From the NCBI GenBank assembly GCA_900317425.1, contig ONGR01000020.1, positions 1 to 37,251 of the forward strand: a stretch of DNA of 37,251 bases, written 5' to 3'. Positions 10,123 through 33,840 of this stretch are shown one piece after another. Source of the DNA: an uncultured Eubacteriales bacterium (lineage in GTDB: Bacteria > Bacillota > Clostridia > Oscillospirales > Oscillospiraceae). The notes under the pieces are model-generated. The model made no database searches and had not been told where the DNA came from. It saw only the letters and a list, made by a program, of their open reading frames with translations. The position numbers were made by a program, and so were the translations under genes. How positions within the stretch are numbered: position 1 is the first letter of the stretch; each line of letters begins with the position of its first letter.

Positions 10123-10353
10123 CTCCAAAACGACAGAGCCGTTTTGGAGAAAAGAGCCGCAGTCCACTTCGCGCACTCATTGCCCACCTTCGGCACGCAA
10201 TTCGCACACTGCGTGGCCTGAGCGGTGCAATTTCTGACGCACATGTCGTCAGAAATTGCGGTTTTACCTCTTCCGCCGCTGCGGCGGCGGAACTCTGCGA
10301 GGCCTTTTCAAATCGCCGGCAGAGCCGTTCGCCGCTCTCTGTTGTTTTATTTC
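10097..10353 (+). repeat. 27-nt direct repeat of the atoE terminator half, flanking an intergenic element
   Basis: The 27 bases beginning GTTCGCCGCTCTCTGTTG at 10097-10123 recur exactly at 10327-10353. The 200 bases between them hold copy A of the dispersed intergenic repeat. In the second copy only the shorter stem AGAGCCG...CGCTCT remains. Confidence 0.85.
10123..10302 (+). repeat. Dispersed structured intergenic repeat, copy A
   Basis: Order of parts: a CTCCAAAACG/CGTTTTGGAG hairpin; CGCGCACTC; a variable hairpin (ATTGC...GCAAT); TCGCACACTGCGTGG; CTGAGCGGT; a stem GCAATTTCTGACG / CGTCAGAAATTGC around a CACATGT-type loop; and TTCCGCCGCTGCGGCGGCGGAA followed by CTCTGCGAGG (the last stem is 22 bases in two halves with a CTGCG-type centre). 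The same plan is seen at 14899, 23292 and 33590. Confidence 0.8.
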
Positions 10354-10365
10354 CGCCGTGAGCGA

Positions 10366-10400
10366 CGCACCCCGCCAAAACATCGGCGGGGTGCGTTTCT
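10366..10400 (+). terminator. Strong GC hairpin before the recJ promoter
   Basis: ACGCACCCCGCC pairs with GGCGGGGTGCGT, followed by TTCTCTCTCTTT, with a longer outer pairing of CGTGAGCGA and TCGCTCGCG. It would insulate recJ from upstream transcription. Confidence 0.65.
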
Positions 10401-10512
10401 CTCTCTTTCGCTCGCGGCACCCTCATTATACGGCGGCCTGTCCCGCGCCGCAACGGACACTTTCCGGCAGTTTTTCCAGCTTTTTCCGCCGGCGGCAGGA
10501 CAAAAAATACGC

Positions 10513-10541
10513 TTTACGCACCTTTTCCTTTGTGTTATAAT
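10513..10541 (+). promoter_or_regulatory. Promoter of the recJ-rel unit
   Basis: TTTACG (10513-10518) and a consensus TATAAT (10536-10541) are 17 bases apart, 56 bases before the recJ start. Confidence 0.75.
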
Positions 10542-10596
10542 AAAGTATTATCAGTAAACTCCGGGATTTTGCCCAAAGAGAGGAGGCGAGTGCATC

Positions 10597-12699
10597 GTGA
10601 AATTCCAGCAGTGGAACGTGGCCGGCGTGCCGGAGCAGACGGTCCGGCGTCTGATGGACGCGGGGTATCCCTATCTGGTATCCGCGGTGCTGGCCTCCCG
10701 CGGCATCGCCTCCGAGACGGAGGCGGCGGATTTCCTCCTGTGCGACCACCGCCTGACCCATTCGCCCCTGCTGATGGCCGATATGGACCGGGCTGTGGAG
10801 CGGATCAGCCGTGCCATGGCCGACGCCGAGCGGATCGCCGTGTTCGGCGACTACGACGTGGACGGCATCACCGCCACTGTCATCCTGGTGGACTATCTCC
10901 GTCAGCGGGGCGCCGACGTGGTGCACTACATCCCCCGGCGCATCGAGGACGGCTACGGACTCAGCGTGGACGCCATCGCCGCGCTGCACCAGCAGGGCGT
11001 GGGCCTGCTGGTGACCGTGGACTGCGGCATCACCGGCGTGGACGAGGTGGCCTACGCCCGCTCCCTGGGCATGGACACCGTGATCACCGATCACCACGAG
11101 TGCAAGGAGATCCTGCCCGACGCCGCCGCCGTGGTGGACCCCCACCGGCCGGATTGTCCCTATCCCTTCAAGCATCTGGCCGGCTGCGGCGTGGCGCTGA
11201 AGCTGGTGCTGGCCCTGGCCGGACCGGACAGGGAGGAGGCCGTCTTCTCCCGCTACTGCACGTTGGCCGCCATCGGCACCGTGGCCGACGTGATGCAGAT
11301 GTCCGACGAGAACCGCACCATCGTCTCCCGTGGCCTGGCCTCCATCGACCACTCCGATTTCATCGGCCTCCACGCCCTGCTCCAGGAGGCGGGTCTGGCC
11401 GGCAGGGCCATCTCCTCCGTGCAGATCGGCTTCGTGCTGGCGCCCCGGATCAACGCCGCCGGGCGCATGGGCGCGGCCAACATGGCCGCCGAGCTGCTGC
11501 TGTGTGACGACGAGGCCAAGGCCGAGGAGCTGGCCCGGGAGCTGTGCGCTCTGAACCGGGAGCGGCAGAGCGTGGAGCAGCACATCTATTCCCAGGCGCT
11601 GGAGATGATCGACGCGCTGCCGGAGGACGAGCGCAGCGCGCTGGTCCTGGCCTCCGACACCTGGCACCAGGGCGTGGTGGGCATCGTGGCCTCCCGCCTC
11701 AGCGAAAAATTCTCCTGCCCCAGCTTTATGATCCATCTCAACGGCACCACCGGCAAGGGCTCCTGCCGCAGCTGGGGCGGCTTCAATCTCTTTGCCGCGC
11801 TGGAGGCCTGTTCCGACCTCCTGCTGGGCTTCGGCGGACACGAGCTGGCCGCCGGCTTCACCATCGAGGCGGAGAACATCCCCGCCTTCCGCAAGCGCAT
11901 CAATCAGTACGCCCGGGATTTCCGGGGCGGCGAGGCGCCCGTGTCCAGTCTGGACGTGGACGTGGTCATCGCCCATCCGGGCCGGATCACCCTGGAGGAG
12001 GTGGAGGCGCTGGACGCCCTGGAGCCCTACGGCTCCGGCAACGTGCGGCCCGTGTTCTGCCTCACCGGGGCCACCCTGGAGCGGGCCCAGAACGTGGGCC
12101 AGAACCGGCATCTGAAGCTGCGGCTGGGCAAGGGCAGCGCCCAGCTGGACGGCATCTTCTTCTCCGCCACCGCCGAAAGCTGCGGCTGCGAGACCGGCAG
12201 CCGGGTGGACGCCGCCTTCTATCTCCAGATCAACGAATTCCGGGGCAGCCGCTCCGTGCAGCTCCAACTGGTGGACATCCGGCCCTCCCTGGCCCCCAGC
12301 GGCAGGGAGGAGGAATCCCTCCAGCTGCTGGGGCGGTGTCTGGCCGGGGAGGAGCTGCTGCCGAAGGAGGCCATGCGGCTGATCCCCAGCCGGGAGCAGT
12401 TCGTCCGCATCTGGCGGACGCTGGAAAAAACCGTGCCGCCGGACGGCCTGACGGCAGATTATCTGCCGCTGCTGCGGACTCTGGCCGCCGCCACGGGCGG
12501 CGCCGATCCCTTCCTGCGGAGCGCCTTCTGCCTGGAGATCTTCGCCGAGCGGGGGCTGCTGGTCAGCAGCCGCCCGGGCGACCGGATCGAGCTGCAGCTG
12601 GCCGGCGAGGGGAAAAAGGTCGACCTGGAGCAGTCGACGTATCTGCAAAGGCTCCGTGACATTCTGGAAACACCGCACAGAGGAGGTGGGCTCGCATGA
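10597..12699 (+). CDS. recJ: Single-stranded-DNA-specific exonuclease RecJ
   Basis: RecJ (700 aa) degrades single-stranded DNA 5' to 3' in recombination and mismatch or base-excision repair. DHH-family motifs are clear: GDYDVDG at 84-90, VDCGITG near 141 and TDHHE at 164-168, with the DHHA1 portion (GKGSCRSWGGFN and GGHELAAGF) near 385-420. The C-terminal OB-like region follows. It starts with GTG at 10597, ten bases after AGGAGG. It overlaps rel by four bases, so the two are translationally coupled; recJ next to relA is also seen in Bacillus. Confidence 0.96.
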   Translation: MKFQQWNVAGVPEQTVRRLMDAGYPYLVSAVLASRGIASETEAADFLLCDHRLTHSPLLMADMDRAVERISRAMADAERIAVFGDYDVDGITATVILVDYLRQRGADVVHYIPRRIEDGYGLSVDAIAALHQQGVGLLVTVDCGITGVDEVAYARSLGMDTVITDHHECKEILPDAAAVVDPHRPDCPYPFKHLAGCGVALKLVLALAGPDREEAVFSRYCTLAAIGTVADVMQMSDENRTIVSRGLASIDHSDFIGLHALLQEAGLAGRAISSVQIGFVLAPRINAAGRMGAANMAAELLLCDDEAKAEELARELCALNRERQSVEQHIYSQALEMIDALPEDERSALVLASDTWHQGVVGIVASRLSEKFSCPSFMIHLNGTTGKGSCRSWGGFNLFAALEACSDLLLGFGGHELAAGFTIEAENIPAFRKRINQYARDFRGGEAPVSSLDVDVVIAHPGRITLEEVEALDALEPYGSGNVRPVFCLTGATLERAQNVGQNRHLKLRLGKGSAQLDGIFFSATAESCGCETGSRVDAAFYLQINEFRGSRSVQLQLVDIRPSLAPSGREEESLQLLGRCLAGEELLPKEAMRLIPSREQFVRIWRTLEKTVPPDGLTADYLPLLRTLAAATGGADPFLRSAFCLEIFAERGLLVSSRPGDRIELQLAGEGKKVDLEQSTYLQRLRDILETPHRGGGLA

Positions 12700-14891
12700 C
12701 GTTGCAGGAACAGTATCAGCATCTGGAGGACACCATCCGGGCCTATAACCCGGGCGCCAATTTCGAACAGATCCGCGCCGCCTTCGACTTTGCCGAGGCC
12801 GCCCACGCCGGGCAGCTCCGGAAGGACGGCTCCCCCTTCGTGACCCATCCGCTGGCCGTGGCCCAGATCCTGGCCGAGGAGCTGCATCTGGACAGCGAGT
12901 CCATCTCCGCCGCCCTGCTCCACGACACCATCGAGGACACCGCCGCCACTCACGAGGATATCGCCCGCCAGTTCTCGCCCACCATCGCCGATCTGGTGGA
13001 GGGCGTCAGCAAGCTGACCCGCGTCCACTATACCTCCAAGGCCGAGGAGCAGATGGAGAACCTGCGCAAGATGCTCATGGCCATGGCCAAGGACATCCGG
13101 GTGATCCTCATCAAGATCTCCGACCGGCTCCACAACATGCGCACCATGGAGTATCAGACGCCGGAGAAGCAGAAGCAGAAGTCCTACGAGACCATGGAGA
13201 TCTACGCCCCCATCGCCCACCGGCTGGGCATGCAGAAGATGAAGTGGGAGCTGGAGGATCTGAGCCTGAAGTATCTGGATCCCGTGGGCTACCGGGAGAT
13301 CACCGAGGCGCTGGAGGCCAAGGCCGCCGAGTACGAGGGCTTCATGGCCGCCATCCAGGACCAGATCTCCGGCCGGCTGACCGACGCCGGCATCGACGGC
13401 GTGGTCTACGGACGGCTGAAGCACCCCTACAGCATCTACCGCAAGATGTATACCCAGAACAAGAGCCTGACCGACGTGTTCGATCTGATCGCCTTCCGGG
13501 TGATCGTGGACACGCTGGCGGACTGCTACAACGTGCTGGGCATCATCCACGACCTGTACCACCCCATCCTGGGCCGGTTCAAGGACTATATCGGCACCCC
13601 CAAGCCCAATATGTACCAGAGCCTGCACACCACGGTGGTGGGCCAGAACGGCATCCCCTTTGAGGTGCAGATCCGCACCAGGGAGATGCACGAGGTGGCC
13701 GAATACGGCATCGCCGCCCACTGGAAGTACAAGCAGAACGGCCAGGGCGCCGGCGACGAGAAGAACTACGAGTGGGTCCGCCGCCTGCTGGAGAACCAGG
13801 AGGGGGCCGACGCCGAGGATTTCATCCACTCCCTGAAGGTGGATATGTTTGCCGACGAGGTGTTCGTGTTCACCCCCATGGGCGACGTGATCAATCTGCC
13901 CGCCGGCGCCACGCCCATCGATTTCGCCTATACCATCCACTCCGCCGTGGGCAACCACATGGTGGCCGCCAAGGTCAACGGACGGATCGTCCAGTTCGAC
14001 TACAAGCTGCAAAACGGCGACGTGGTGGAGGTGGAGACCTCCAAGTCCGCCCACGGGCCCAGCCGGGACTGGATCAAGATCGCCCAGTCCAGCAACGCCC
14101 GCAGCAAGATCCGCCAGTGGTTCAAGAAGGAGCGCCGGGAGGAGAACATCATCAACGGCAAGGCCTCCTTCGACGCGGAGATCCGCCGCTGCGGCATCAC
14201 CGTCAAGGAGCTGACCAACGAGGAGAATCTGCCGCTGGTGCTGAAAAAGCTGAGCTACAACTGTCTGGACGATATGTACGCCGCCATCGGCTACGGCGGC
14301 GTCACCGCCCTGAAGCTGGTGGGCCGGCTGCGGGAGGAGATCAACCACGTCCTCCAGCAGCACCAGAACGCCCCGGCCCAGCCGGAGCAGACCGAACAGG
14401 CCAAGCCCTCCGCCCAGCCCCGCCGGGTACACGGCGAGCAGGGCATCATCGTGGAGGGGCTGGACAACTGCCTGGTGAAGTTCGCCAAGTGCTGCACCCC
14501 CGTCCCCGGCGACGAGGTGGTGGGCTTCATCACCCGGGGCTACGGCGTGTCCGTCCACCGGGCGGACTGCCCCAACGCCGCGCCGGAGCGCCGCCGCAGC
14601 GAGGAGGACGGCCGCTGGATCAAGGTCAGCTGGGCCGAGAAGACCAATCCCTCCTATCAGACCACGCTGGAGGTGCTGGCCAAGGACCGCCCCGAGCTGA
14701 TGGTGGATATCTCCACCGTCATCTCCTCCACCAAGACCCAGTTCCGGGGGCTCAACGCCCGCATCACCGCCGAGGGCGCCGTCCTGGTGACCATGGACGT
14801 GAGCGTGGCCGACACGGAGCAGCTGCAGGCTGTCGTGCGGCGGCTGACACAGATCTCCGGCGTGATGCAGGTCAACCGTCCGGCGGGATAA
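12696..14891 (+). CDS. relA: Bifunctional (p)ppGpp synthetase/hydrolase (RSH)
   Basis: This 731-aa long RSH enzyme would make and degrade (p)ppGpp in the stringent response. The HD hydrolase domain shows H51 in FVTHPLAV and HDTIEDT at 76-82. The synthetase has YGRLKHPYSIYRKM near 240 and GRFKDYIGTPKPN near 290, where the RxKD motif is the form found in bifunctional enzymes. A TGS domain (VFVFTPMGDVINLPAGAT) is near 390, the conserved KCCTPVPGD near 590, and a C-terminal ACT domain ends the protein. The ATG overlaps the recJ stop. Transcription probably continues toward dtd through repeat copy B. Confidence 0.96.
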   Translation: MTLQEQYQHLEDTIRAYNPGANFEQIRAAFDFAEAAHAGQLRKDGSPFVTHPLAVAQILAEELHLDSESISAALLHDTIEDTAATHEDIARQFSPTIADLVEGVSKLTRVHYTSKAEEQMENLRKMLMAMAKDIRVILIKISDRLHNMRTMEYQTPEKQKQKSYETMEIYAPIAHRLGMQKMKWELEDLSLKYLDPVGYREITEALEAKAAEYEGFMAAIQDQISGRLTDAGIDGVVYGRLKHPYSIYRKMYTQNKSLTDVFDLIAFRVIVDTLADCYNVLGIIHDLYHPILGRFKDYIGTPKPNMYQSLHTTVVGQNGIPFEVQIRTREMHEVAEYGIAAHWKYKQNGQGAGDEKNYEWVRRLLENQEGADAEDFIHSLKVDMFADEVFVFTPMGDVINLPAGATPIDFAYTIHSAVGNHMVAAKVNGRIVQFDYKLQNGDVVEVETSKSAHGPSRDWIKIAQSSNARSKIRQWFKKERREENIINGKASFDAEIRRCGITVKELTNEENLPLVLKKLSYNCLDDMYAAIGYGGVTALKLVGRLREEINHVLQQHQNAPAQPEQTEQAKPSAQPRRVHGEQGIIVEGLDNCLVKFAKCCTPVPGDEVVGFITRGYGVSVHRADCPNAAPERRRSEEDGRWIKVSWAEKTNPSYQTTLEVLAKDRPELMVDISTVISSTKTQFRGLNARITAEGAVLVTMDVSVADTEQLQAVVRRLTQISGVMQVNRPAG

Positions 14892-14898
14892 GAGCAGT

Positions 14899-15057
14899 CG
14901 CTGTAAAAACGCTTCGCTGGTTTTTCCAGCGAGGAGATTGCGGCTCACTCCGCGCACTCGCTGCGCTCGCACACTGCGTGAGCCGAGAAGTATTTTTTCT
15001 GACGCGCATGTCGTCAGAAAAAATGATTGAATGTCTTTCGCCGCTGCGGCGGCGAAA
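14899..15057 (+). repeat. Dispersed structured intergenic repeat, copy B
   Basis: It begins seven bases after the rel stop. Parts: a CGCTG...AAAAAC / GTTTTT...CAGCG hairpin; an outer stem CGGCTCAC / GTGAGCCG enclosing CGCGCACTCGCTGCG and CTCGCACACTGCG; a stem TTTTTTCTGACG / CGTCAGAAAAAA around CGCATGT; then TTTCGCCGCTG / CGGCGGCGAAA. It ends directly before the dtd ribosome-binding site. Confidence 0.8.
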
Positions 15058-15088
15058 TGCTACTTTACAACAACAAAGGAGAACCCCT

Positions 15089-15535
15089 ATGCGAGCTGTA
15101 TTGACCCGGGTGAGCCGGGCCTCCGTCACCATTGACGGCGAGGTGGCCGGCAAGATCGGCACCGGCTTTCTCATTCTGCTGGGCGTGGGCCAGGACGACA
15201 CCGAGGCCCAGTGCGTCAAGCTGGCCGACAAGCTGACCAGTCTGCGGATCTTTGACGACGAGAACGACAAGATGAACCTCTCCCTCACCGACGTTGGCGG
15301 CGAGATCCTGGTGATCTCCCAGTTCACCCTCTACGGCAACTGCCGCAAGGGCCGCCGCCCCGAATATCTGGCCGCCGCCCGGCCCGAGGTGGCCATCCCC
15401 CTCTACGAGAAGTTCGTGGAGCTGTGCCGGACCAAGGGCTTCCACGTGGAGACCGGCCGCTTCGGCGCCGACATGCAGGTGGAGTCCCTCAACAACGGGC
15501 CGGTGACCCTGGTGGTGGACACGGACAATTTATAA
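15089..15535 (+). CDS. dtd: D-aminoacyl-tRNA deacylase
   Basis: Dtd (148 aa) hydrolyses D-aminoacyl-tRNAs and also mischarged glycyl-tRNA-Ala, protecting translation from wrong amino acids. The family start MRAVLTRVSRASVTIDG, the core motif SQFTLYG near 78-84 and the C-terminal motif NNGPVT near 137 (usually N-x-GPVT) are all present, and the length is standard. AAAGGAG lies upstream at good spacing. A 10-base gap separates it from the metallo-hydrolase gene, so the two are probably co-transcribed. Confidence 0.96.
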   Translation: MRAVLTRVSRASVTIDGEVAGKIGTGFLILLGVGQDDTEAQCVKLADKLTSLRIFDDENDKMNLSLTDVGGEILVISQFTLYGNCRKGRRPEYLAAARPEVAIPLYEKFVELCRTKGFHVETGRFGADMQVESLNNGPVTLVVDTDNL

Positions 15536-15545
15536 GGGGGCCGCT

Positions 15546-16169
15546 ATGAAGATCTATACCATGCAGGTGGGTCCCATCATGACCAACTGCTATCTCCTGT
15601 GCGACGAGGAGGCGGGCCTGTGCGCCCTCATCGACCCCGGTGACAACGCCGGTCGGCTGGAGGAGATGATCGCCTCCTCCGGCTGCGCCCTCCGATATAT
15701 CCTGCTGACCCACGGCCACTTCGATCACTGCAGCGCCGTGGGGGACATTCTGGCCAGGCACCCGGACGTGCCGGTGTACATCCACCCCAGCGACGTGGTG
15801 CCTGCCGGCGTCTACAACGATCTGAAGTTTGCCCGGCTGGACGATCACAACCAGCGCTTCTACGGCGAGGGCGACACGCTGACGCTGGGCAGCATCACCA
15901 TCTCCGTGCTGGCCACGCCGGGCCACTCCAGCGGCTCCGTGTGCCTGATCGCCGGGAACGTGATCTTCTCCGGCGATACCCTGTTCCGGGCCACCTGCGG
16001 CCGCACCGACTTTCCCGACGGCAGCTATGAGGATATCCTCCGCTCCCTGGCCCGCCTTGCCCGGCTGGAGGGCAGCTATCACGTCTGTCCCGGCCACGAG
16101 AGCCAGACAGAGCTGGACTACGAGCGCCGGGTCAATCCCTACATGCAGCAGGGGCTGCGCCAATTCTGA
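15546..16169 (+). CDS. MBL-fold metallohydrolase (glyoxalase II-like)
   Basis: This 207-aa cytosolic metallo-beta-lactamase-fold hydrolase has the metal motif THGHFDH at 55-61, further ligand segments ATPGHSSGS near 122 and FSGDTLF near 141, and a final PGHE near 185. It belongs to the small GloB-like group commonly found beside dtd and rel in Firmicutes. The physiological substrate cannot be read from sequence; hydroxyacylglutathione or another thioester is a family guess. AAGGGGG precedes the start. Confidence 0.9.
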   Translation: MKIYTMQVGPIMTNCYLLCDEEAGLCALIDPGDNAGRLEEMIASSGCALRYILLTHGHFDHCSAVGDILARHPDVPVYIHPSDVVPAGVYNDLKFARLDDHNQRFYGEGDTLTLGSITISVLATPGHSSGSVCLIAGNVIFSGDTLFRATCGRTDFPDGSYEDILRSLARLARLEGSYHVCPGHESQTELDYERRVNPYMQQGLRQF

Positions 16170-16174
16170 TCCAA

Positions 16175-16198
16175 CGGGCCGATGCCATCATCGGCCCG
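16175..16198 (+). other. Perfect intergenic hairpin without T-tract
   Basis: CGGGCCGATG pairs exactly with CATCGGCCCG around CCAT, six bases after the hydrolase stop. The next bases are AAACTTTG, so it is not a standard terminator. It may be a processing or stability hairpin between this gene and hemZ. Confidence 0.6.
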
Positions 16199-16233
16199 AA
16201 ACTTTGACTGCGATGATTTGAGGAAACACGCCC

Positions 16234-17712
16234 ATGAAACTGTTTTTTCACGGACACGACGAGCGCTACGCCGTGGAGCAGAGCCTGCTGGCCTTCTTCC
16301 CGGAGGAGCGGCCCGTCTACGACCCGGACGCCGCCGAGGACAGCGCCGCCGTGGTGAACCTGTCCGCCGCCCCTGTCTACACCACCGCCACCACGACCAT
16401 CGCCTGCGGCGGCAGGACCGCCCGGGGCGTCTCCCGGGTGGCCATCCCCGCCGGCCTCGACCCCTACGAGGCGGAGCGGCGGCGGCAGAAGGCCGTCAAG
16501 CTGAGCTTCTTCAAGGCCGCCCGGGCCATCACCGGCGCGACCCCCTCCTGGGGCGCCCTCACCGGCATCCGGCCCGGCAAGCTGGCGGAGCGGTTTTTGC
16601 TGGAGGGCAACTCCCCCCGGCAGGTGGACCGGATCCTGGAGAAAACCTATTTCGTCGCTCCCGAGCGGCGGCGGCTGGCCATCGAGACGGCGCAGGCCGG
16701 CCTGCGGGCCAAGGCCGACCTCCGGCCGGAGGACATCTCCCTCTACGTGGGCATCCCGTTCTGTCCCACCCGGTGCGCCTACTGCTCCTTCGTGTCCCAG
16801 TCGGTGGAGAAATCCCTGCCCATGATCGAGCCGTATCTGGACGTGCTGATGCGGGAGATCACCGACGCGGCGGAGATGGTGCGGGAGACGGGCCTGCGCA
16901 TCAAGTCCTTCTACATGGGCGGCGGCACCCCCACCACGTTGTCGGCAGCGCAGATGGACCGGCTGCTGACCCATCTGAACCGCTCCTTCGACCTGAGCGG
17001 CTGCGTGGAGTACTGCATCGAGGCCGGCCGGCCCGACACCATCACGCGGGACAAGCTCCAGGTGCTGTTGGATCACGGCGCCGACCGGATCAGCGTGAAC
17101 CCCCAGTCGTTGGACGACCGGGTTTTAGCCGCCATCGGACGGCGCCACACCGCCCGGGACATCCAGGAGGCCATGGATCTGGCCACCTCCATGGGCTTCC
17201 CCCACGTGAACATGGACCTGATCGCCGGATTGCCGGAGGACACGCCGGACGGCTTCCGCCGGACGCTGGACACCTGCCTCACCTACGGCGCCGACAACAT
17301 CACCGTCCACACCCTGGCCCTCAAAAAGGGCAGCCGCATCCTGCTGGAGGGGCTGGCCATCCCCAGCGCCGAGGCCGTGGGGGAAATGCTGGACTACGCC
17401 AACCCCACCCTCCGCGCCCACGGCTTCGTGCCCTACTATCTCTACCGGCAGAAATATATGTCCGGCAGCTTCGAGAACGTGGGCTGGTGCATACCGGGGG
17501 CCGAGGGCCTATATAATATCTACATCATGGAGGAGCTCCACAGCATCCTCTCCCTGGGCGCCGGCGGCTCCACCAAGATGGTGGACCCCGGGGGCAACCG
17601 GATCACCCGGGTGTTCCACGCCAAGTATCCCAACGAGTACATCACCCGCCCGGAAAAGCTGCGGGAAAATCTGGAAGCGTTTCGGCAGTTCCATGAGGAG
17701 CTGCTGAAATAG
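16234..17712 (+). CDS. hemZ: Radical SAM coproporphyrinogen dehydrogenase family protein HemZ
   Basis: This 492-aa radical SAM enzyme is of the oxygen-independent coproporphyrinogen III oxidase family, HemZ branch. The cluster motif CPTRCAYC gives Cys 177, 181 and 184; YMGGGTPTTL near 227 and SVNPQSLDDRVL near 287 are family segments. A long N-terminal extension of about 165 residues with GALTGIRPGKLAE is typical of HemZ and separates it from HemN and HemW. A role in heme synthesis is the family annotation; no other heme genes are in view. TTGAGGAAA precedes the start. Confidence 0.92.
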   Translation: MKLFFHGHDERYAVEQSLLAFFPEERPVYDPDAAEDSAAVVNLSAAPVYTTATTTIACGGRTARGVSRVAIPAGLDPYEAERRRQKAVKLSFFKAARAITGATPSWGALTGIRPGKLAERFLLEGNSPRQVDRILEKTYFVAPERRRLAIETAQAGLRAKADLRPEDISLYVGIPFCPTRCAYCSFVSQSVEKSLPMIEPYLDVLMREITDAAEMVRETGLRIKSFYMGGGTPTTLSAAQMDRLLTHLNRSFDLSGCVEYCIEAGRPDTITRDKLQVLLDHGADRISVNPQSLDDRVLAAIGRRHTARDIQEAMDLATSMGFPHVNMDLIAGLPEDTPDGFRRTLDTCLTYGADNITVHTLALKKGSRILLEGLAIPSAEAVGEMLDYANPTLRAHGFVPYYLYRQKYMSGSFENVGWCIPGAEGLYNIYIMEELHSILSLGAGGSTKMVDPGGNRITRVFHAKYPNEYITRPEKLRENLEAFRQFHEELLK

Positions 17713-22556: not shown

Positions 22557-23291
22557 ATGGAAAAGATCGCGCTGGTTAGCGGCTCGTCCCGGGGGATCGG
22601 CCGGGCCGTGGCCGCCCGGTTGGGGCGCAGCGGCTGGGCCGTGTGCATCAACTACCGGGTGCGGCAGGACTGTGCCGAGAGTCTGGCGGCGGAGCTGCGC
22701 GCCGAGGGCTGCCGCTGCATGGTGGTGCAGGCGGACGTGTCCGACCGGGAGCAGGTGAACGCCATGGTGCGCCAAATCGAGGAGACCTTCGGCCCCGTAT
22801 CCCTGCTGGTGAACAACGCCGGCGTGGCGGGTCAGGCCCTGTTCCAGGACATCACCGACGAGCTGTGGCACCGGTACTTCTCCGTCAACGTGGACGGCGC
22901 CTTCCACACCATCCAGGCCGTGCTGCCCCACATGCTCCATGAGCACGAGGGCTGCATCGTCAACGTCTCCTCCATCTGGGGCCAGCGGGGCGCCAGCTGC
23001 GAGGTGACCTACTCCGCCACCAAGGCGGCGCTCATCGGCCTGACCCGGTCGTTGGCGGCGGAGCTGGCCCCTACCCACATCCGGGTCAACTGCGTGGCCC
23101 CCGGCGTCATCCGCACCGATATGCTGGACGCCCTGCCCCCTGAGGTCCTGCCCCAGCTGGCACAGGAGACCCCCATGGGCCGTCTGGGCACCCCCGAGGA
23201 CGTCGCCTCCGCCGTGGCCTTCCTGGCCTCGGAGCAGGCGGACTTCGTCACGGGACAGGTCCTCACCGTGGACGGGGGATTCATCCTGTAG
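22557..23291 (+). CDS. SDR family oxidoreductase (FabG/YmfI-like)
   Basis: This 244-aa short-chain dehydrogenase has the Rossmann motif GSSRGIGRA at 9-17, NNAGV at 86-90 and the catalytic set Ser139, Tyr152 and Lys156 (YSATK). The terminal DFVTGQVLTVDGGF is typical of FabG-like enzymes. It could be a 3-oxoacyl-ACP reductase or the related reductase that completes elongation factor P modification (YmfI). No fatty acid synthesis genes flank it, so the second option stays open. CGAGGAGG precedes the start. Repeat copy C begins right at its stop. Confidence 0.88.
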   Translation: MEKIALVSGSSRGIGRAVAARLGRSGWAVCINYRVRQDCAESLAAELRAEGCRCMVVQADVSDREQVNAMVRQIEETFGPVSLLVNNAGVAGQALFQDITDELWHRYFSVNVDGAFHTIQAVLPHMLHEHEGCIVNVSSIWGQRGASCEVTYSATKAALIGLTRSLAAELAPTHIRVNCVAPGVIRTDMLDALPPEVLPQLAQETPMGRLGTPEDVASAVAFLASEQADFVTGQVLTVDGGFIL

Positions 23292-23460
23292 TCAACGAAG
23301 TGGCAGAGCCACTTCGTTGAGGGGGTATGCAGCCCACTCCGCGCACTCGCGTGAGACGCTCGCACACTGCGTGGTCTGAGAAGTGTGTTTTGCCACGTAC
23401 ACGCCGCGGCAAAACACGACTATATTCCTTCGCTCACTGCGGTGAGCGAACTCTGCGAGG
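23292..23460 (+). repeat. Dispersed structured intergenic repeat, copy C
   Basis: It starts at the base after the SDR stop. Parts: a perfect TCAACGAAGTGGC / GCCACTTCGTTGA hairpin; CAGCCCAC / GTGGTCTG outer stem; CGCGCACTCGC, then CTCGCACACTGCG; a GTGTTTTGCC / GGCAAAACAC stem around CACGTACACGCC; and TTCGCTCACTG / CGGTGAGCGAA followed by CTCTGCGAGG. The last two stems differ in sequence from copies A and B yet keep pairing. Confidence 0.8.
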
Positions 23461-23470
23461 CTTTTGGCAT

Positions 23471-26940: not shown

Positions 26941-26954
26941 ATATCGCCATACTT

Positions 26955-27191: not shown

Positions 27192-28367
27192 ATGACCGCG
27201 AAAACCGTTCTCTATCGGGCACAGCAGGCCGCCGTGGGACTGGGCGGGCATTTTTTGCGCTGGCCGAAGCCCGTCTGCGTCACCGGACCGGGGAGCCTTG
27301 CCCGCCTGCCGGACCTCCTCCGCGAGGCCGGGGCGAAGAAGCCCCTGATCGTGGCCAGCCGCCGCCAATGCGCCGACCCCGCCTTTGCCGCCATGGCGGC
27401 GGGGCTGGCGGACTACGCGCTCTTCTCGGACGTCCCCGCCGATCCGCCGGTTATGACGGTGGAGGCCATCGCCGCCCTCTACCGCCGGGAGGGGTGCGAC
27501 AGCTTCGCCGCCATCGGCGGCGGGTCCCCCATGGACGCCGCCAAGGCCGCCGCGGCCCGGATCGCCCGGCCGGACAAAACCCTGGCCCAGATGGGCGGGC
27601 TCATGAAGGTGGGGCGGGCCATCCCGCCCTTCGTCGCCGTGCCCACCACCGCCGGCACCGGCTCGGAGACCACCATGGCCGCCGTGGTCACCGGCCCGGA
27701 CCACCGCAAGTACGCCCTGGGCGACCTCCATCTCATCCCCCGGTACGCCATCCTGGACCCCACCCTCACCGTCTCCCTGCCGCCGGATATCACCGCCCAG
27801 ACCGGCATGGACGCCCTGACCCACGCCGTGGAGGCCTATTGCAGCCGCTTTTACAACACCAACCAGACCCGCCGTCTGGCGGAGACGGCGGTGGCGGACA
27901 TCTTCCGCTGGCTGCCCGCGGCCTGCGAAAACGGGGAAGACCTGACCGCCCGGGAGAAGCTGCTGATCGCCTCCTTTCGGGCCGGGTGCGCCTTTACCCG
28001 GGCCGGGGTGGGCAACGTCCACGCCATCGCCCACACGCTGGGCGGCCTCTACGGCGTGGGGCACGGTCTGGCCAACGCGGTGCTGCTGCCGGTGATCCTC
28101 CGGGACTACGGCTCGACCGTGGCGCCTCAGCTGGGCCGTCTGGCGGAGGCGGCGGGCATCGCCGGCGGGGCGGACGGCTTCGTGGACGCCATCTTCGCCA
28201 TGAACGAAAAACTGGGCATTCCCCGGGGCTTTTCCTGCATCCGGACCGAGGACATCCCCCGGATGACCGCCTGGGCCGACGCCGAGGCCAACCCCGGTTA
28301 TCCCGTGCCGGTGATCTACGACCGGGAACATTTTGCCGAGATCATTCACCGGATCCGGCTGGAATAA
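27192..28367 (+). CDS. Iron-containing (group III) alcohol dehydrogenase family protein
   Basis: This 391-aa NAD(P)-dependent dehydrogenase of the iron-activated family has the nucleotide motif GGGSPMDAAK near 115, the family signature region PTTAGTGSETT near 155, and metal-site His in DALTHAVEAY near 217 and NVHAIAHTLGGLYGVGHG near 276-293. The true substrate is unknown; butanol, propanediol or lactaldehyde dehydrogenases share this fold. AAAGGAG lies nine bases before the ATG. It stands alone behind a hairpin-rich leader with a terminator and ends in a clear terminator. Confidence 0.9.
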   Translation: MTAKTVLYRAQQAAVGLGGHFLRWPKPVCVTGPGSLARLPDLLREAGAKKPLIVASRRQCADPAFAAMAAGLADYALFSDVPADPPVMTVEAIAALYRREGCDSFAAIGGGSPMDAAKAAAARIARPDKTLAQMGGLMKVGRAIPPFVAVPTTAGTGSETTMAAVVTGPDHRKYALGDLHLIPRYAILDPTLTVSLPPDITAQTGMDALTHAVEAYCSRFYNTNQTRRLAETAVADIFRWLPAACENGEDLTAREKLLIASFRAGCAFTRAGVGNVHAIAHTLGGLYGVGHGLANAVLLPVILRDYGSTVAPQLGRLAEAAGIAGGADGFVDAIFAMNEKLGIPRGFSCIRTEDIPRMTAWADAEANPGYPVPVIYDREHFAEIIHRIRLE

Positions 28368-28408
28368 TCCGCGATTTCGGGACATTTGTCCGCCGCAAAA
28401 GAACATCG

Positions 28409-28435
28409 GGGGTGCTCTGCACCCCTGTTTTTTAT
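28409..28435 (+). terminator. Terminator of the alcohol dehydrogenase gene
   Basis: GGGGTGC / GCACCCC with a three-base loop, then TGTTTTTT. Confidence 0.88.
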
Positions 28436-28440
28436 GGTAA

Positions 28441-28642
28441 CGGGCAAATTATGGGAAGTTTTCCGGCGGTTTTTCCGTTGACATAACGGTTGTGGAAAAT
28501 TTGGTGGAAAGTGTGAAAAACTTTGTGGTTACAGGGTTTGTAAGGCGGTTGCAACCTTTGTTATTTTTTGCGGTAACCGGGAATTATTTTTTGCCTTTGC
28601 ACCCTTTTTGTCAATCGTCGGCGCACCGCGGCAGATGGGCAC
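28441..28642 (+). other. Gene-free region with DnaA-box-like 9-mers
   Basis: This AT-richer stretch before the topoisomerase promoter has no convincing gene. TGTGGAAAA (28491-28499) and TGTGAAAAA (28512-28520) both fit the complement of the DnaA-box pattern TTWTNCACA; TGTGGTTAC (28524-28532) is a weaker relative. The palindrome GGTTGCAACC lies at 28547-28556. Confidence 0.4.
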
Positions 28643-28671
28643 TTGCCAGATCCCAAAAAATAATATAGAAT
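28643..28671 (+). promoter_or_regulatory. Promoter of the topoisomerase B-subunit gene
   Basis: TTGCCA (28643-28648) and TAGAAT (28666-28671), each one base from consensus, are 17 bases apart. Confidence 0.75.
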
Positions 28672-28773
28672 ATGTATTTGGTGAAATGGCCGCCTTGGGC
28701 CGTCTCACCACCCGGGAAACAATTTGCGCGATTTCACCGGCGGAGCGCCGGGCGAAAGGAATACGAACATCAT

Positions 28774-30762
28774 ATGGCAAAGAAACACGTATACGACAAC
28801 GAGAGCATCTCCAGTCTGAAGGGCGCGGACCGGGTGCGCAAGCGCCCCGGCGTCATCTTCGGCTCCGACGGACTGGAGGGCTGCGAGCACGCGGTCTTCG
28901 AGATCCTCTCCAACGCCATCGACGAGGCCCGCACCGGCCACGGACGGCTCATCACCGTGACCCGGTTTCTGGACAAGTCCATCCAGGTGGAGGACCAGGG
29001 CCGGGGCTGCCCCGTGGACTGGAACGAGAAGGAGGGGCGCTACAACTGGGAGCTGGTGTTCTGCGAGCTGTACGCCGGCGGCAAGTACGACAACGAGAGC
29101 AGCGAGAACTACGAGTTCTCCCTGGGCCTCAACGGTCTGGGCTCCTGCGCCACCCAGTACGCCTCCCGCTACATGGACGTCACCGTCTGGCGGGAGGCCA
29201 CCGAGTACCGCCTCCACTTCGAGCGGGGCGAGATCGTGGGCCAGCTGGAAAAGACGCCCCTGACCACCAACAAGAAGCGCACCGGCACCACCATCCGCTG
29301 GCTGCCGGATCTGGAGGTGTTCACCGACATCGCCATTCCGGTGGACTACTACCGGGACGTGATGCGCCGCCAGGCCGTGGTCAACGCCGGCGTCACCTTC
29401 CGGCTGCGCAACGAGACCGCCGCCGGCAAGTTCGAGACCGAGGATTTCCTCTATGAGAACGGCATCCGGGACTACATCGCCGAGCTGGCGGGGGAGGACG
29501 CCCTCACCGAGCCGGTGTGCTGGGAGACGGAGCGCCGGGGCCGGGACCGGGCGGACAAGCCGGAATACAAGGTCCGGCTCAGCGTGGCCTGCTGCTTTTC
29601 CAACCGGGTGGCGGTGTGCGAGCACTACCACAACTCCAGCTTTCTCGAGCACGGCGGCTCCCCGGAGAAGGCCACGCGCCTTGCCTTCGTGGCCGCCATC
29701 GACAAGTACCTGCGGGAGAACAACAAGTATCTCAAATCCGAGGCCAAGATCACCTTCGCCGACGTGCAGGACTGCCTGGTGCTGGTGAGCAACAACTTCT
29801 CCACCCAGACCAGCTACGAAAACCAGACCAAGAAGGCCATCACCAACAAGTTCGTCCAGGACGCCATGTCGGAGTTCCTCCGCAGCCAGCTGGAGGTCTA
29901 CTTCATCGAGAACCACGAGGCGGCGGAGAAGATCGCCGCCCAGGTGCTGGTGAACAAGCGCAGCCGGGAGACCGCCGAGCGCACCCGCATCAACCAGAAG
30001 AAGAAGCTCACCGAGAAGATCGACATCGCCAACCGGGTGCAGAAGTTCGTGGACTGCCGCACCAAGGACGTGGAGCGGCGGGAGATCTACATCGTGGAGG
30101 GCGACAGCGCCCTGGGCGCCTGCAAGCAGAGCCGGGACGCCGAGTTCCAGGGGCTCATGCCCGTCCGGGGCAAGATCCTCAACTGCCTGAAGGCCGACTA
30201 TCCCCGGATCTTCAAGAGCGAGATCATCACCGACCTCATGAAGGTGCTGGGCTGCGGCGTGGAGGTCCAGAGCAAGGCCGTCAAGGACCTGAACCAGTTC
30301 AACTTGGGCAATCTCCGCTGGAGCAAGGTGGTCATCTGCACCGATGGCGACGTGGACGGCTTCCAGATCCGGACGCTGATCCTCACCATGCTCTACCGCC
30401 TGTGCCCCACCCTGATCCGGGAGGGATACGTCTACATCGCCGAGACGCCCCTCTTCGAGATCACCTGGAAGGACAAGACCTGGTTCGCCTACTCCGAGAA
30501 GGAGAAGGCCGACATCCTCCAGGAGCTGGAGGGGAAGAAGGTCACCGTCCAGCGCAGCAAGGGACTGGGCGAGAACGACCCGGAGATGATGTGGCTGACC
30601 ACCATGAACCCGGCCACCCGCCGGCTCATCAAGGTCCTGCCCGACGAGGCGGAGGAGACCGCACGGGTCTTCGACCTGCTGCTGGGGGACAACCTGGCCG
30701 GGCGTAAGGACTATATCGCCGAAAACGGGTATAAGTATATGGACATGATCGACGTGAGCTGA
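28774..30762 (+). CDS. Type IIA DNA topoisomerase subunit B (ParE/GyrB family)
   Basis: This 662-aa ATPase subunit would drive DNA strand passage with the A subunit downstream. The GHKL ATPase shows EILSNAIDEA (near 46-55), VEDQGRGCPVD (near 71) and the ATP-lid SLGLNGLG (near 117). The TOPRIM domain has YIVEGDSALGACKQ near 443 and CTDGDVDGFQIR near 521, and a QRSKGLGENDPEMMW segment precedes the end. These differ from the canonical EGDSAGGSAKQ and TDADVDGAHI of main gyrase, so this is the divergent second enzyme found in many Clostridia, probably a ParE-like decatenase. Start at 28774; AAAGGA is 13 bases upstream, a long spacing. Confidence 0.88.
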   Translation: MAKKHVYDNESISSLKGADRVRKRPGVIFGSDGLEGCEHAVFEILSNAIDEARTGHGRLITVTRFLDKSIQVEDQGRGCPVDWNEKEGRYNWELVFCELYAGGKYDNESSENYEFSLGLNGLGSCATQYASRYMDVTVWREATEYRLHFERGEIVGQLEKTPLTTNKKRTGTTIRWLPDLEVFTDIAIPVDYYRDVMRRQAVVNAGVTFRLRNETAAGKFETEDFLYENGIRDYIAELAGEDALTEPVCWETERRGRDRADKPEYKVRLSVACCFSNRVAVCEHYHNSSFLEHGGSPEKATRLAFVAAIDKYLRENNKYLKSEAKITFADVQDCLVLVSNNFSTQTSYENQTKKAITNKFVQDAMSEFLRSQLEVYFIENHEAAEKIAAQVLVNKRSRETAERTRINQKKKLTEKIDIANRVQKFVDCRTKDVERREIYIVEGDSALGACKQSRDAEFQGLMPVRGKILNCLKADYPRIFKSEIITDLMKVLGCGVEVQSKAVKDLNQFNLGNLRWSKVVICTDGDVDGFQIRTLILTMLYRLCPTLIREGYVYIAETPLFEITWKDKTWFAYSEKEKADILQELEGKKVTVQRSKGLGENDPEMMWLTTMNPATRRLIKVLPDEAEETARVFDLLLGDNLAGRKDYIAENGYKYMDMIDVS

Positions 30763-30785
30763 GGGCGGTTTCGCGCCCCCCGTGC

Positions 30786-31276
30786 GCGGGGACGTGTCTC
30801 CGACGGGTGACTTTCTCCATCAGCGGAGAAAGTAGGCAAAGACGCCGCTTGAAACCCATGGTTTCAAGACTTCCTTTGCGCGAGGTATGACTTTCCTTGT
30901 TGAAACCTATTACCGCGCGATCGCGGAGTACGCTGCGTTTTCCCCGCAAATATGATCCATTTCCCTTCTCTGTTCGCTGCCGCACTCTGGCGCAACGGTA
31001 GAAGCCGGTTCTCCTACATTTCAGAGCAGCGCGGCAGCGGAGCCAAGAAGCAGAGACGATGCCACATTTCGGGTCCCTTGCTGTTTTTCCGCTGCGCGTG
31101 GTGGAAACTTCCACAACCGCCGTGGTGCGGAGCGCGCCGAGGAAGGTCTTGGAAACAACGTTTCCAAGCGGCCCTTTTGGTGACTTTTGGGGCCGAGGCC
31201 ATAACTGACGCCCCAAATCTCTGATTTGGCTGGCGGAAGGGTTCCTGTGGAAAAGTCACCCGCGTCCGGGGACGCG
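30786..31276 (+). repeat. Intergenic element with long imperfect inverted arms
   Basis: The left arm (about 30806-30885) reads GGTGACTTTCTCC, AAAGTAGGCAAAG, GCCGCTTGAAAC, GTTTCAAGAC and TTCCT...GCGCG. The complement of the right arm (31260 back to 31131) reads GGTGACTTTTCC, AAAAGTCACCAAAAG, GCCGCTTGGAAAC, GTTTCCAAGAC and TTCCT..GCGCG. The right arm carries an extra block with the hairpin CCAAATCTCTGATTTGG (31213-31229). The core (30886-31130) has further pairing, such as TTCGCTGCCGC / GCGGCAGCGGA. No transposase is present and no convincing gene is inside. Confidence 0.75.
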
Positions 31277-31342
31277 GAATTTCCCCCTCCCCGCAAGCGC
31301 GGAAATCCCTCTTTCAACCCTCCAAGAAAGGACACCGTTCCT

Positions 31343-33586
31343 ATGGCAAAGAAAAAGACAACCGACGAGCTGACCGTCCGGCACGCCGACAACCCCAACG
31401 TCATGGGGCTCCGGGGCGCCGTGGTGGACCAGCCTATCACCGAGACGCTGGACAGCAACTTCATGCCCTACGCCATGAGCGTCATCGTCAGCCGGGCCAT
31501 TCCGGAGATCGACGGCTTCAAGCCCTCCCACCGGAAGCTGCTGTACACCATGTACAAGATGGGCCTGCTGACCGGCGGGCGCACCAAGTCCGCCAACATC
31601 GTGGGCCAGACCATGCGCCTCAACCCCCACGGCGACGCCGCCATCTACGAGACCATGGTGCGCCTCTCCCGGGGCAACGAGGCCCTGCTCCACCCCTTCG
31701 TGGACAGCAAGGGCAACTTCGGCAAGGTCTACTCCCGGGACATGGCCTACGCCGCCAGCCGCTACACCGAGGCAAAGCTCTCCCCCATCTGCGCCGAGCT
31801 CTTCCGGGATCTGGACAGCGACGCCGTGGACTTCATGCCCAACTACGACAACTCCACCACCGAGCCCACCCTGCTGCCCACCACCTTCCCCAACGTGCTG
31901 GTGTCCTCCAACCTGGGCATCGCCGTGGGCATGGCCAGCCAGATCTGCGGCTTCAACCTGGGCGAGGTCTGCGACACCACCATCGCCCTGCTGAAAAATC
32001 CCGACCACGACATCATGAGCACCCTCCTGGCCCCCGACTTTCCCACCGGCGGCCAGCTGATCCTGGATGAGAAGGAACTCTGTCAGATTTATTCCACCGG
32101 CCGGGGCGGCGTCCGGGTCCGGGCCAGGTACCGCTATATCAAGAAGGAGAACCTCATCGAGATCTACGAGATCCCCTATTCCACCTCCATTGAGGCCATT
32201 CTGGACAAGGTGGCGGAGCTGGTGAAGGCCGGCAAGGTGAAGGAGATCAACGACATGCGGGACGAGACCGACCTGAGCGGTCTCAAGCTGACCATCGACC
32301 TGAAGCGGGGGGCCGACCCCGACAAGCTGATGGCCAAGCTCTTCAAGCTGACGCCGCTGGAGGACACCTACAGCTGCAACTTCAACATCCTCATCGCCGG
32401 CAGCCCCCGGGTCATGGGCGTGGGGGAGATCCTGGAGGAGTGGATCGCCTGGCGCACCGAGTGCGTCCGCCGCCGGGTCTACTTCGTGCTCAGCAAGAGG
32501 CGGGAGAAGCTGCACCTGCTGCTGGGCCTCAAGCGGATCCTGCTGGATATCGACAAGGCCATCGCCATCATCCGCCAGACCGAGGAGGAGGCGGAGGTCG
32601 TCCCCAACCTGATGATCGGCTTCGGCATCGATCAGGCCCAGGCCGAATACGTGGCGGAGATCAAGCTGCGGAACATCAACAAGGAGTACATCCTCAAGCG
32701 GGTGGCGGAGACCGAGGCCCTCCAGGACGAGATCGCCGATCTGGAGGACACCCTGGCCAAGGCCAGCCGCATCCGGAAGATCATCATCGACGAGCTGACC
32801 GCCGTGCGGAAGAAGTACGCCGTGCCCCGCCGCACCGAGATCGTCTACAGCGACGAGGTGGAGGAGTACACCGAGACCGAGCAGGTGGAGGACTATCCCG
32901 TCCACCTGTTCCTCAGCCGGGAGGGCTACTTCAAGAAGATCACCCCCCAGTCCCTGCGGATGTCCGGCGAGCAGAAGTTCAAGGAGGGCGACAGCCTGCG
33001 CCAGAGCTTCGAGGCCACCAACGGCGCCGAGCTCATGTTCTTCACCGACCGCCAGCAGGTCTACAAGTGCCGCGCCGCCGACTTCGGCGACACCAAGGCC
33101 TCCGCCCTGGGGGACTATCTGCCGGCCAAGCTGGGCATGGACGAGGGGGAGAGCGTCATCTTCCTGTGCCTGCCCGGGGACTACGGCGGCCATCTGCTGT
33201 TCTTCTTCGCCAACGGCAAGGCCGCCAAGGTGCCGGTGGAGTCCTATCAGACCACCTCCAACCGCCGCCGGCTCACCGGCGCCTACAGCGACAAGGCGCC
33301 TCTGGTGGCCATCGTCCACATGCCGGAGGACGCCGAGCTGGCCCTCTACACCAACGAGCCCCGGGCCCTCCTCTTCCACACGTCCCTGCTGCTGCCCAAG
33401 GCCACCCGGGCCACCCAGGGCGTGGCGGTGATGACCATCAAGCCCAAATATCACCTGGAGCGGGTGGTCGGCGTGGCCGAGACCGGCATCGTCAACCACA
33501 GCCGCTACCGGGCCCGCTCTCTCCCCGCCGCCGGCGCGCTGGTGAAGCCGGAGGATTCCGACGAGAAGCAGCTGGCGCTGCTGTAG
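31343..33586 (+). CDS. Type IIA DNA topoisomerase subunit A (ParC/GyrA family)
   Basis: This 747-aa subunit breaks and rejoins DNA. The catalytic pair is Arg140-Tyr141 in AYAASRYTEAKLS. The winged-helix region has PSHRKLLYTMYKMGLL near 61-76 and the quinolone-pocket segment MRLNPHGDAAIYETMVRLSR at 91-110. There Ala99 stands where gyrase and ParC usually have Ser, and Glu103 at the acidic position. A coiled-coil stretch is near 440-500 and a short beta-pinwheel C-terminus follows. It is shorter than typical GyrA and lacks an obvious GyrA box. With the preceding B subunit it forms a divergent second type II enzyme. AAAGGA precedes the ATG. Confidence 0.88.
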   Translation: MAKKKTTDELTVRHADNPNVMGLRGAVVDQPITETLDSNFMPYAMSVIVSRAIPEIDGFKPSHRKLLYTMYKMGLLTGGRTKSANIVGQTMRLNPHGDAAIYETMVRLSRGNEALLHPFVDSKGNFGKVYSRDMAYAASRYTEAKLSPICAELFRDLDSDAVDFMPNYDNSTTEPTLLPTTFPNVLVSSNLGIAVGMASQICGFNLGEVCDTTIALLKNPDHDIMSTLLAPDFPTGGQLILDEKELCQIYSTGRGGVRVRARYRYIKKENLIEIYEIPYSTSIEAILDKVAELVKAGKVKEINDMRDETDLSGLKLTIDLKRGADPDKLMAKLFKLTPLEDTYSCNFNILIAGSPRVMGVGEILEEWIAWRTECVRRRVYFVLSKRREKLHLLLGLKRILLDIDKAIAIIRQTEEEAEVVPNLMIGFGIDQAQAEYVAEIKLRNINKEYILKRVAETEALQDEIADLEDTLAKASRIRKIIIDELTAVRKKYAVPRRTEIVYSDEVEEYTETEQVEDYPVHLFLSREGYFKKITPQSLRMSGEQKFKEGDSLRQSFEATNGAELMFFTDRQQVYKCRAADFGDTKASALGDYLPAKLGMDEGESVIFLCLPGDYGGHLLFFFANGKAAKVPVESYQTTSNRRRLTGAYSDKAPLVAIVHMPEDAELALYTNEPRALLFHTSLLLPKATRATQGVAVMTIKPKYHLERVVGVAETGIVNHSRYRARSLPAAGALVKPEDSDEKQLALL

Positions 33587-33589
33587 CCT

Positions 33590-33840
33590 GCTCAAAAACG
33601 GCTTGGCCGTTTTTAAGCAAAAGGTTTGCAGACCACTCCGCGCACAGCTGGCGCATAAGTTCGTGTTGCCAAATCAGAGATTTGGACACTCACTTATCGC
33701 TGCGCTCGCACACTGCGTGCTCTGAGCGGTGTATTTTGCCACGTACGCCAGTCTTCGCCCGCGAGGAAGGAGCGGTTGCGAAGACAAGTGCCCTTGGGGT
33801 ACACGCCGCAGCAAAATACGATTGAAATAATCTTGTCACT
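33590..33840 (+). repeat. Dispersed structured intergenic repeat, copy D
   Basis: It starts four bases after the topoisomerase A stop. Parts: a GCTCAAAAACGGC / GCCGTTTTTAAGC hairpin; CAGACCACTCCGCGCAC; an inserted block that includes the hairpin CCAAATCAGAGATTTGG (33669-33685); CTCGCACACTGCGTG; CTGAGCGGT; then GTATTTTGC / GCAAAATAC, whose loop is enlarged by an inserted GTCTTCGC / GCGAAGAC hairpin. The final stem seen in A-C is degraded. Confidence 0.75.

Follow-up and report, generated by a model that had tools for sequence, protein, structure and literature searches.

The stretch of DNA analysed here (the window; 37,251 nucleotides of contig ONGR01000020.1, from an uncultured Eubacteriales bacterium) carries four repeats, copies A to D, which share a plan of successive hairpins (P1 to P5) and all have the orientation of the gene upstream. 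Copy A (10120..10304, + strand) lies downstream of a gene for a short-chain fatty acid transporter and comprises P1 (10120-10152), P2 (10160-10167 with 10213-10220), P3 (10227-10259), P4 (10271-10292) and P5 (10293-10301); the covariance model of the family matches it at 10153-10304 (E 2.7e-35). It lies 55 bases downstream of the stop codon (10064), with a terminator hairpin in between. Duplicates of this 33-bp host terminator flank the copy on the left (10091..10123, +) and on the right (10321..10353, +), as shown by the duplication test (locus L049, which scored 61 where the null reached at most 23) and by reading the sequence. Copy B (14898..15057, +; P1 at 14898-14932 to P4 at 15036-15057; model match 14934-15069, E 9e-35) is located between a RelA/SpoT gene and the D-Tyr-tRNA deacylase (dtd) gene, is truncated at its right end and is without P5. 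Copy C (23292..23462, +; P1 at 23292-23320, P5 at 23451-23459; model match 23323-23462, E 3.7e-39) follows immediately 3' of the TAG (23289-23291) of a short-chain dehydrogenase gene. Copy D (33589..33831, +; P1 at 33589-33619; model match 33622-33831, E 1.4e-4) lies behind the gene of a gyrase/topoisomerase IV subunit A. It is enlarged, with an additional hairpin in the P2 loop and a 54-base module (GCCAG...GGGGT, 33747..33800, +) in the P3 loop; P4 and P5 are unrecognisable.

The original prediction, made from the window alone, described four copies with one plan, and these were found where it placed them and built as it described. Its further claim that three copies start close to a stop codon and that all are gene-oriented holds for the orientation of all four and for the distance in B, C and D, where P1 is at most 8 bases from the stop (TAA 14889-14891 for B, TAG 33584-33586 for D); the right truncation of B and D and the module in D are to be added as corrections.

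A search for further copies in this genome and its relatives, as originally proposed, revealed a large family. In its own genome the covariance model yielded 26 matches at E<0.002, including the four window copies (scores were computed for 150 of the 432 first-look candidates), and matches were recovered in 30 of 31 other genomes of the genus. At most 53 candidates were scored in each of the latter, and copy numbers are consequently lower bounds; one genome, G018, gave 75 copies, and copy number thus varies between genomes. A 13-mer allowing at most one mismatch matched 15 times in the own genome (8 exactly) and its reversed control not once. Within the window, a 14-base motif taken alone with three mismatches remained at chance level (7 matches against a mean of 5.24, a count reached in 27 of 100 shuffles), and another core motif exceeded chance (4 matches, reached in 1 of 100 shuffles). 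A chance origin was rejected since the full model, unlike the one bare motif in the window, is not at chance level. The element is short, about 170-200 bases, and multi-copy, and is too short for a transposase gene; young copies outside the window measure about 200 bases and reach TTTTTTGACAnnCTG. The original prediction recognised no named family, and neither did Rfam, which returned no family at gathering score for the window copies and no fitting match at a relaxed threshold for seven loci with copies and one with the module. Plasmids gave no match, phages gave two matches, both partial and in faecal records without annotation (covering 62% and 36% of the query), and viral contigs gave 20 matches to a short pattern. 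Among the papers listed on IS1182 and miniature inverted-repeats, terminator targeting, Faecalibacterium and Oscillospiraceae repeats, palindrome-associated elements, and hairpins with template switching, no description of the family was recognised by title.

Of the 83 copies with a called upstream neighbour, 73 shared the strand of that gene, and no copy with both neighbours called occupied a divergent gap. Strands were called with a codon score trained on nine frames of the window, selected by length (flanks were long enough in 88 of 99 copies), because the longest open frame is misleading in this G+C-rich genome. Distances from P1 to the stop codon fell between -8 and 10 bases in 52 of 75 placed copies, between 11 and 34 in none, and at 35 or more in 23. 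P1 was located by a script that maximises pairing. A score of at least 16 was reached in 95 of 98 copies but in only 16 of 490 shuffled sequences, where high-scoring hairpins are thus rare.

Reading of 40 copies from seven genomes showed that young copies end in terminal inverted repeats, GAGACTGTC(A/G)AAAAAC on one side and TTTTTTGACAnnCTG on the other, and that they adjoin a terminator-like hairpin upstream which is repeated downstream. Few copies retain both end motifs; of the 75 placed copies, 67 were without one or both when judged strictly. Direct repeats of 21-57 bp abutted the element in 23 of 97 tested copies, the weakest of which scored 32 against 23 for the best of 97 mismatched pairings, and the other 74 displayed no clear abutting duplication. 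A hairpin of at least 8 pairs was present in 18 of these 23 repeats and was not detected by a simple finder in the other 5. Empty sites were also encountered. The site of locus L102 has its counterpart in genome G008 as a single terminator with no element, and of three young G018 sites for which empty counterparts were sought, a relative aligned across the junction at one. The site of copy B is empty in 14 of the 26 relatives read, and four relatives apparently retain only remnants there, for instance P4 with the tail, or P1 together with P4. By eye, no terminator is seen where the copy B site is empty, and terminator targeting therefore leaves this insertion unexplained.

The ends of the element closely resemble those of IS1182-type insertion sequences from the same bacterial family. 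Transposases at loci L142 and L143 match the IS1182 model NF033551 (397 and 345 bits), and L194 and L195, whose proteins are 76% identical to that of L142, are complete elements. The latter, CAGTTTGTCAAAAAAC...GTTTTTTTGACAAACTG, is flanked on both sides by copies of a 31-bp hairpin, and the former, CAGACTGTCGAAAAAC...TTCGACAGTCTG, by copies of a palindrome. Hairpins also adjoin the right ends of L142, L193, L209 and L211 and one left end in L143; none abuts the right end of L144 by eye. As far as read, the interiors of L194 and L195 are unlike that of the short element. Given the similar ends and the complete insertion sequences lying between duplicated hairpins, the repeats are miniature inverted-repeat elements (MITEs), probably moved by IS1182-type transposases. 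The transposase domain PF13751 was detected in 5 of 32 genomes of the genus (4 above the cut-off), while the own genome, G018, G013 and G017 gave no match; this search thus found no IS1182-type transposase in most carrier genomes.

Stem covariation was far above shuffled and slid controls. In an alignment of 100 loci, 94.8% of cells were paired, a value that leans upward because the loci were fitted to the model, and 631 cells held double changes, a level that none of 500 shuffles attained. The paired stem changes of the original prediction are consequently significant. Pairs in P2-P4 comprised 2597 Watson-Crick, 18 G.U and 10 A.C, a G.U share of 0.7% of standard pairs, with two of 30 columns left out as less than 80% paired; the full 30 columns gave 2675, 18 and 74, with 64 of the A.C in a single conserved A.C column. 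The THF riboswitch of the same genus (RNAalifold structure; 27 of 31 hits, 25 of them distinct) gave 606, 93 and 2 (G.U 13.3%), and other terminator-like hairpins gave 1517, 99 and 16 (G.U 6.1%), the last A.C count being lowered by a limit of one mismatch. The G.U to A.C balance of the element differed from that of the riboswitch (Fisher p 4e-6) and of the terminator-like hairpins (0.013), and in columns switching between A-T and G-C the G.U share was 0.8% against 7.0% in the riboswitch. P1 carried more wobble than P2-P4 (1209 Watson-Crick, 37 G.U or 3.0%, and 19 A.C). With G.U nearly absent and a mismatch spectrum that is not RNA-like, structured RNA was rejected as the main reading. The original prediction of an RNA or cruciform under selection is thus upheld in its compensating changes, with a cruciform closer to the data than an RNA; selection on RNA is not supported, in view of the wobble counts and of features typical of mobile elements (inverted repeats at the ends, duplicated hairpin targets and sites that lack the element). 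Several unpaired segments are conserved, namely the P3 loop ACGyACAyGyCG, the P4 loop TGCG, the P2 core and also the P5 loop, which suggests that the structure is recognised by something.

Variation of hairpin P2b in genome G018 illustrates how the stems change. The set comprised 51 of the 75 G018 copies, of which L309, L312, L320 and L328 were unrecognised and L336 was without P2b, leaving 46. The 30 distinct forms held 6 A.C and 1 G.U mismatches. The closest pair differed at 2 of 138 other positions, yet at 9 of 27 in P2b, with pairing kept. Pairs with at least 8 P2b differences had a median divergence of 10.9% elsewhere, and most such pairs are therefore not young. Since P2b can differ widely between otherwise near-identical copies and still pairs, rewriting or exchange of arms at the DNA level appears likelier than selection on RNA. 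Loop inversion, an expected mark of template switching, did not exceed chance (5 pairs against 3.49 expected; 491 of 2000 permutations as high).

The 54-base module of copy D sits in hairpin tips outside the family as well. At the copy B site it is present in genome G029 and absent in the own genome, so that, for this module, the original proposal of growth through inserted hairpins holds.

We therefore hold with considerable confidence that the repeats are MITEs of about 170-200 bases, mobilised in trans by IS1182-family transposases, whose hairpins are maintained at the DNA level, arm rewriting and exchange being the likeliest cause. The transposase would cut at both feet of a hairpin on opposite strands, and gap filling would then copy the target hairpin. 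As terminators point with the gene, copies would mostly come to be gene-oriented. Older copies may shed the outer end together with the upstream terminator copy, by which P1 would arrive at the stop codon and may have taken over as terminator. Nearly strict Watson-Crick pairing of P1, P2, P2b, P3, P4 and P5 is kept at the level of DNA, most likely because one arm is rewritten from the other by template switching in replication and because hairpins are exchanged between copies, or alternatively because the transposase uses DNA hairpins that are under selection. A fuller version, which we offer tentatively, is that the body is continually rewritten arm from arm, so that stems change whole and covary without RNA, that P1 takes over at the stop codon, and that the 54-base tip element spreads into the loops of palindromes both within the family and beyond it.

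A functional structured RNA spread by copying (a 3' UTR element, a terminator or a small RNA), with paired changes selected on the RNA, would account for the strong covariation, the conserved loops, the same-strand position of most placed copies directly behind stop codons and the high P1 scores. We regard it as improbable, given the scarcity of G.U pairs and the G.U to A.C balance relative to both controls, the absence of an Rfam match, the apparent remnants at the copy B site, and a place and number that the marks of mobility explain. More serious, though still unlikely in our judgment, is that the same MITE has hairpins or cruciforms selected for binding by the transposase or another protein. 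The nearly strict pairing and the conserved P3, P4 and P5 loops fit this well, and IS1272 and TnSha1 are reported, in excerpts of PMC5678879 and PMC4923244, to choose hairpins. However, the 67 copies without intact ends should no longer move, yet the pooled set (both groups together) stays paired, and some near-identical copies have widely different P2b hairpins. An IS200/IS605-like single-strand transposon, or a system of the REP/RAYT type, would share the extragenic palindromes, conserved loops and high copy number. We consider this origin very improbable: inverted repeats at the ends and long duplications of target hairpins agree with IS1182-type elements, and REP elements are not known to have either feature.

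Several known systems resemble the MITE family in part. BOX, Correia/NEMIS and bcr1 are bacterial MITEs with internal structure, being short, non-autonomous, intergenic, modular, foldable and present in high copy; unlike them, the element has IS1182-like ends and target, and highly variable stems that are nearly strictly Watson-Crick. Group IIC introns insert behind terminator hairpins, whereas the element duplicates the terminator and ends in inverted repeats. The IS1182-family insertion sequences IS1272 and TnSha1 share the DDE transposase family of the presumed partner and the use of hairpins or terminators as targets. In the excerpts of those two sources, IS1272 replaces its target hairpin without duplication and TnSha1 deletes part of its target. 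Replacement of the stem-loop in the manner of IS1272 was rejected for the copies with a clear repeat, in which the target hairpin is duplicated and not deleted. Template switching is put forward in an excerpt of PMC8794818 as the cause of perfect stems and multi-base compensation in RNA genes; we propose the same cause for a mobile DNA repeat.

The family offers an example from nature in which terminator hairpins are duplicated in full by an IS1182-type system; the excerpts of the IS1182 literature depict this outcome only as possible. It also suggests that DNA can give rise to covariation of a strength commonly read as proof of a functional RNA, and that such mobile repeats can be mistaken for structured RNAs. 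Here, DNA and RNA are told apart by the near-absence of G.U and by the ratio of G.U to A.C, two measures that might be tested as a filter in searches for new RNAs. Finally, with its many young copies and variable stems, the family makes concerted stem change directly testable.

The repeats make up a family of IS1182-linked MITEs (short non-autonomous transposons), which are genetic entities of a known kind. The four copies in the window (A, 10120-10304; B, 14898-15057; C, 23292-23462; D, 33589-33831; all on the plus strand) have the positions and the common plan given in the original prediction. Their upstream genes encode a short-chain fatty acid transporter (A), RelA/SpoT (B, with the D-Tyr-tRNA deacylase gene dtd downstream), a short-chain dehydrogenase (C) and gyrase/topoisomerase IV subunit A (D). 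Elsewhere in the window, an exact 86-bp duplication (34683-34768 and 34857-34942) takes in the terminator of a tRNA-Gly gene and the 3' end of the gene itself.

A covariance model built from 13 copies of this genome retrieved 26 matches (E<0.002) in its 1.87 Mb and further matches in 30 of the 31 other genomes of the genus; comparison with Rfam returned no family matching the repeats, which the original prediction had not assigned to a named one. Matches were also found in 3/5 genomes from other genera of the same bacterial family and in 1/23 from other families, with 75 in G018 (same genus) and 83 in G042 (another family). Scanning named species genomes for a pattern yielded 46 stretches. One came from Curtobacterium; the remaining 45 were in records titled Oscillospiraceae, Ruminococcaceae or Clostridia, whose isolate names indicate samples from rabbit, goat and water buffalo, among others.

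The 5' hairpin of the element, P1, has 9-21 pairs, was present in all 98 copies examined and displays 70 distinct 5' arms. A spacer separates it from P2 (as CAGACCAC/GTGGTCTG), and next comes the conserved core CGCGCACTC...TCGCACACT, which encloses a variable hairpin, P2b. P3 follows with the conserved loop ACGyACAyGyCG, then P4, with the loop TGCG in most forms, and finally the tiny P5 (NTC-TGC-GAN; C-G 50, A-T 35, G-C 4), which has T-rich sequence on its 3' side. The 83 G042 matches represent a sister element (e.g., loci L288 and L292) that has P3-P4-P5 in common with the family; its 5' hairpins, different in the 15 copies read, are long and variable. The claim that stems change sequence and keep pairing held in 98 distinct copies, in which 94.8% of P2, P3 and P4 cells were paired and 27 of 30 pairs of these stems showed double changes, values unreached by any shuffle. 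Folded as single-stranded DNA, copy C was 6.1 standard deviations better than shuffles.

Such paired changes had been taken to indicate a selected RNA or cruciform. A selected RNA should tolerate wobble pairs, and intolerance should be expected of a DNA hairpin, of a requirement that both strands fold, or of arm copying; the pairing counts of the repeats suit DNA better than RNA. Well-paired columns of P2-P4 contained 2597 Watson-Crick, 18 G.U and 10 A.C cells, and were compared by Fisher tests with the THF riboswitch, an RNA control across the genus (window 2032-2134, minus strand; 606, 93 and 2), and with 146 terminator-like hairpins outside the elements (1517, 99 and 16), giving p values for G.U:A.C of 4e-6 and 0.013, respectively. 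At the 14 columns of the repeat that switch between A-T and G-C, G.U made up 10 of 1287 standard pairs (0.8%), the riboswitch value being 17 of 242 (7.0%). P1 was laxer than P2-P4, with 1209 Watson-Crick, 37 G.U (3.0%) and 19 A.C cells. The P2b hairpin took 30 distinct forms in 46 G018 copies, with 6 A.C and 1 G.U mismatches. In the closest G018 pair with differing P2b, 9 of 27 P2b positions had changed, against 2 of 138 elsewhere, and P2b was still paired; pairs with at least 8 P2b differences had a median divergence elsewhere of 10.9%. A published account (PMC8794818) describes template switching as a one-step route to stem rewriting. Loop inversion, its mark, was looked for in the repeats and not found above chance; selection for DNA hairpins or exchange between copies may therefore also account for the stems.

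Young, near-identical copies in other species have the ends GAGACTGTC... and ...TTTTTTGACAnnCTG, and a terminator-like hairpin on their 5' side is repeated 3' of the element. Of 97 copies tested, 23 have direct repeats of 21-57 bp immediately beside the element, copy A among them (10091-10123 and 10321-10353), and 18 of the 23 have a hairpin of at least 8 pairs; none of 97 mismatched control pairings scored as high. One of the young G018 sites corresponds in the relative G008 to a single terminator without the element, and the same search at two other G018 sites found no relative aligned across the junction. The transposases at loci L142 and L143 match NF033551 (IS1182); PF13751 occurs in 5 of 32 genomes of the genus. 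Among 150 genomes of the bacterial family, 11 encode proteins related to that of L142. Each of the complete elements at L194 and L195 closely resembles the MITE at its ends and is flanked by duplicated palindromes. MITE-like ends adjoin hairpins on the left at L143 and on the right at L142, L193, L209 and L211; the right end at L144 lacks an adjoining hairpin. These common ends and the common target suggest that an IS1182-type enzyme moves the repeats. No matching transposase was found in this genome, so the partner may have been lost, be absent from the assembly, or be different.

Of 83 copies whose upstream neighbour could be called, 73 have that gene on the strand of the repeat, and divergent gaps hold none of the copies for which both neighbours were called. 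For the 75 placed copies, the distance from the stop codon to the start of P1 is -8 to 10 bases in 52, at least 35 bases in 23, and 11-34 bases in none; 18 more copies have no same-strand stop within 250 bases. Both end motifs (strict test) were retained in eight placed copies, all in the far class. Fresh copies would thus sit 3' of a terminator, and older ones would be missing both the outer end and the terminator copy that stood upstream, so that P1 comes to adjoin the stop codon. This scheme does not simply accommodate the copy B site: inspection by eye revealed no terminator in the empty forms of that site. Among 27 genomes with both flanking genes readable, the copy B site holds a full copy in three (this genome, G029 and G025), a 22-44-base gap without the element in 14, apparent remnants in four (L218, L219, L220, L238) and a longer gap with other sequence in six. 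The copies of this genome and G029, taken as orthologous because they have the same truncated right end, differ almost wholly in their P1 stems, both paired. In several relatives (L222, L223, L228, L229) the relA-dtd interval is rich in other repeats, of the GTAGGGGC...GCCCCTAC kind.

A 54-base module (GCCAG...GGGGT) lies within P3 or P4 loops (copy D, L031, L032, L034 and others) and also within loops of unrelated palindromes; examples from these settings are window 33747-33800, L153:5414-5467 and L216:1884-1936. At the copy B site the module is present in G029 and absent from this genome. Its pattern marks 32 stretches in the fetched loci, five of which look like chance by eye; about 14 fall outside the family, and flanking stems exceed the 95% point of random places in 18 of the 32. 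What is new in this MITE family is the duplication of a terminator, together with a highly variable, nearly strictly Watson-Crick hairpin body.
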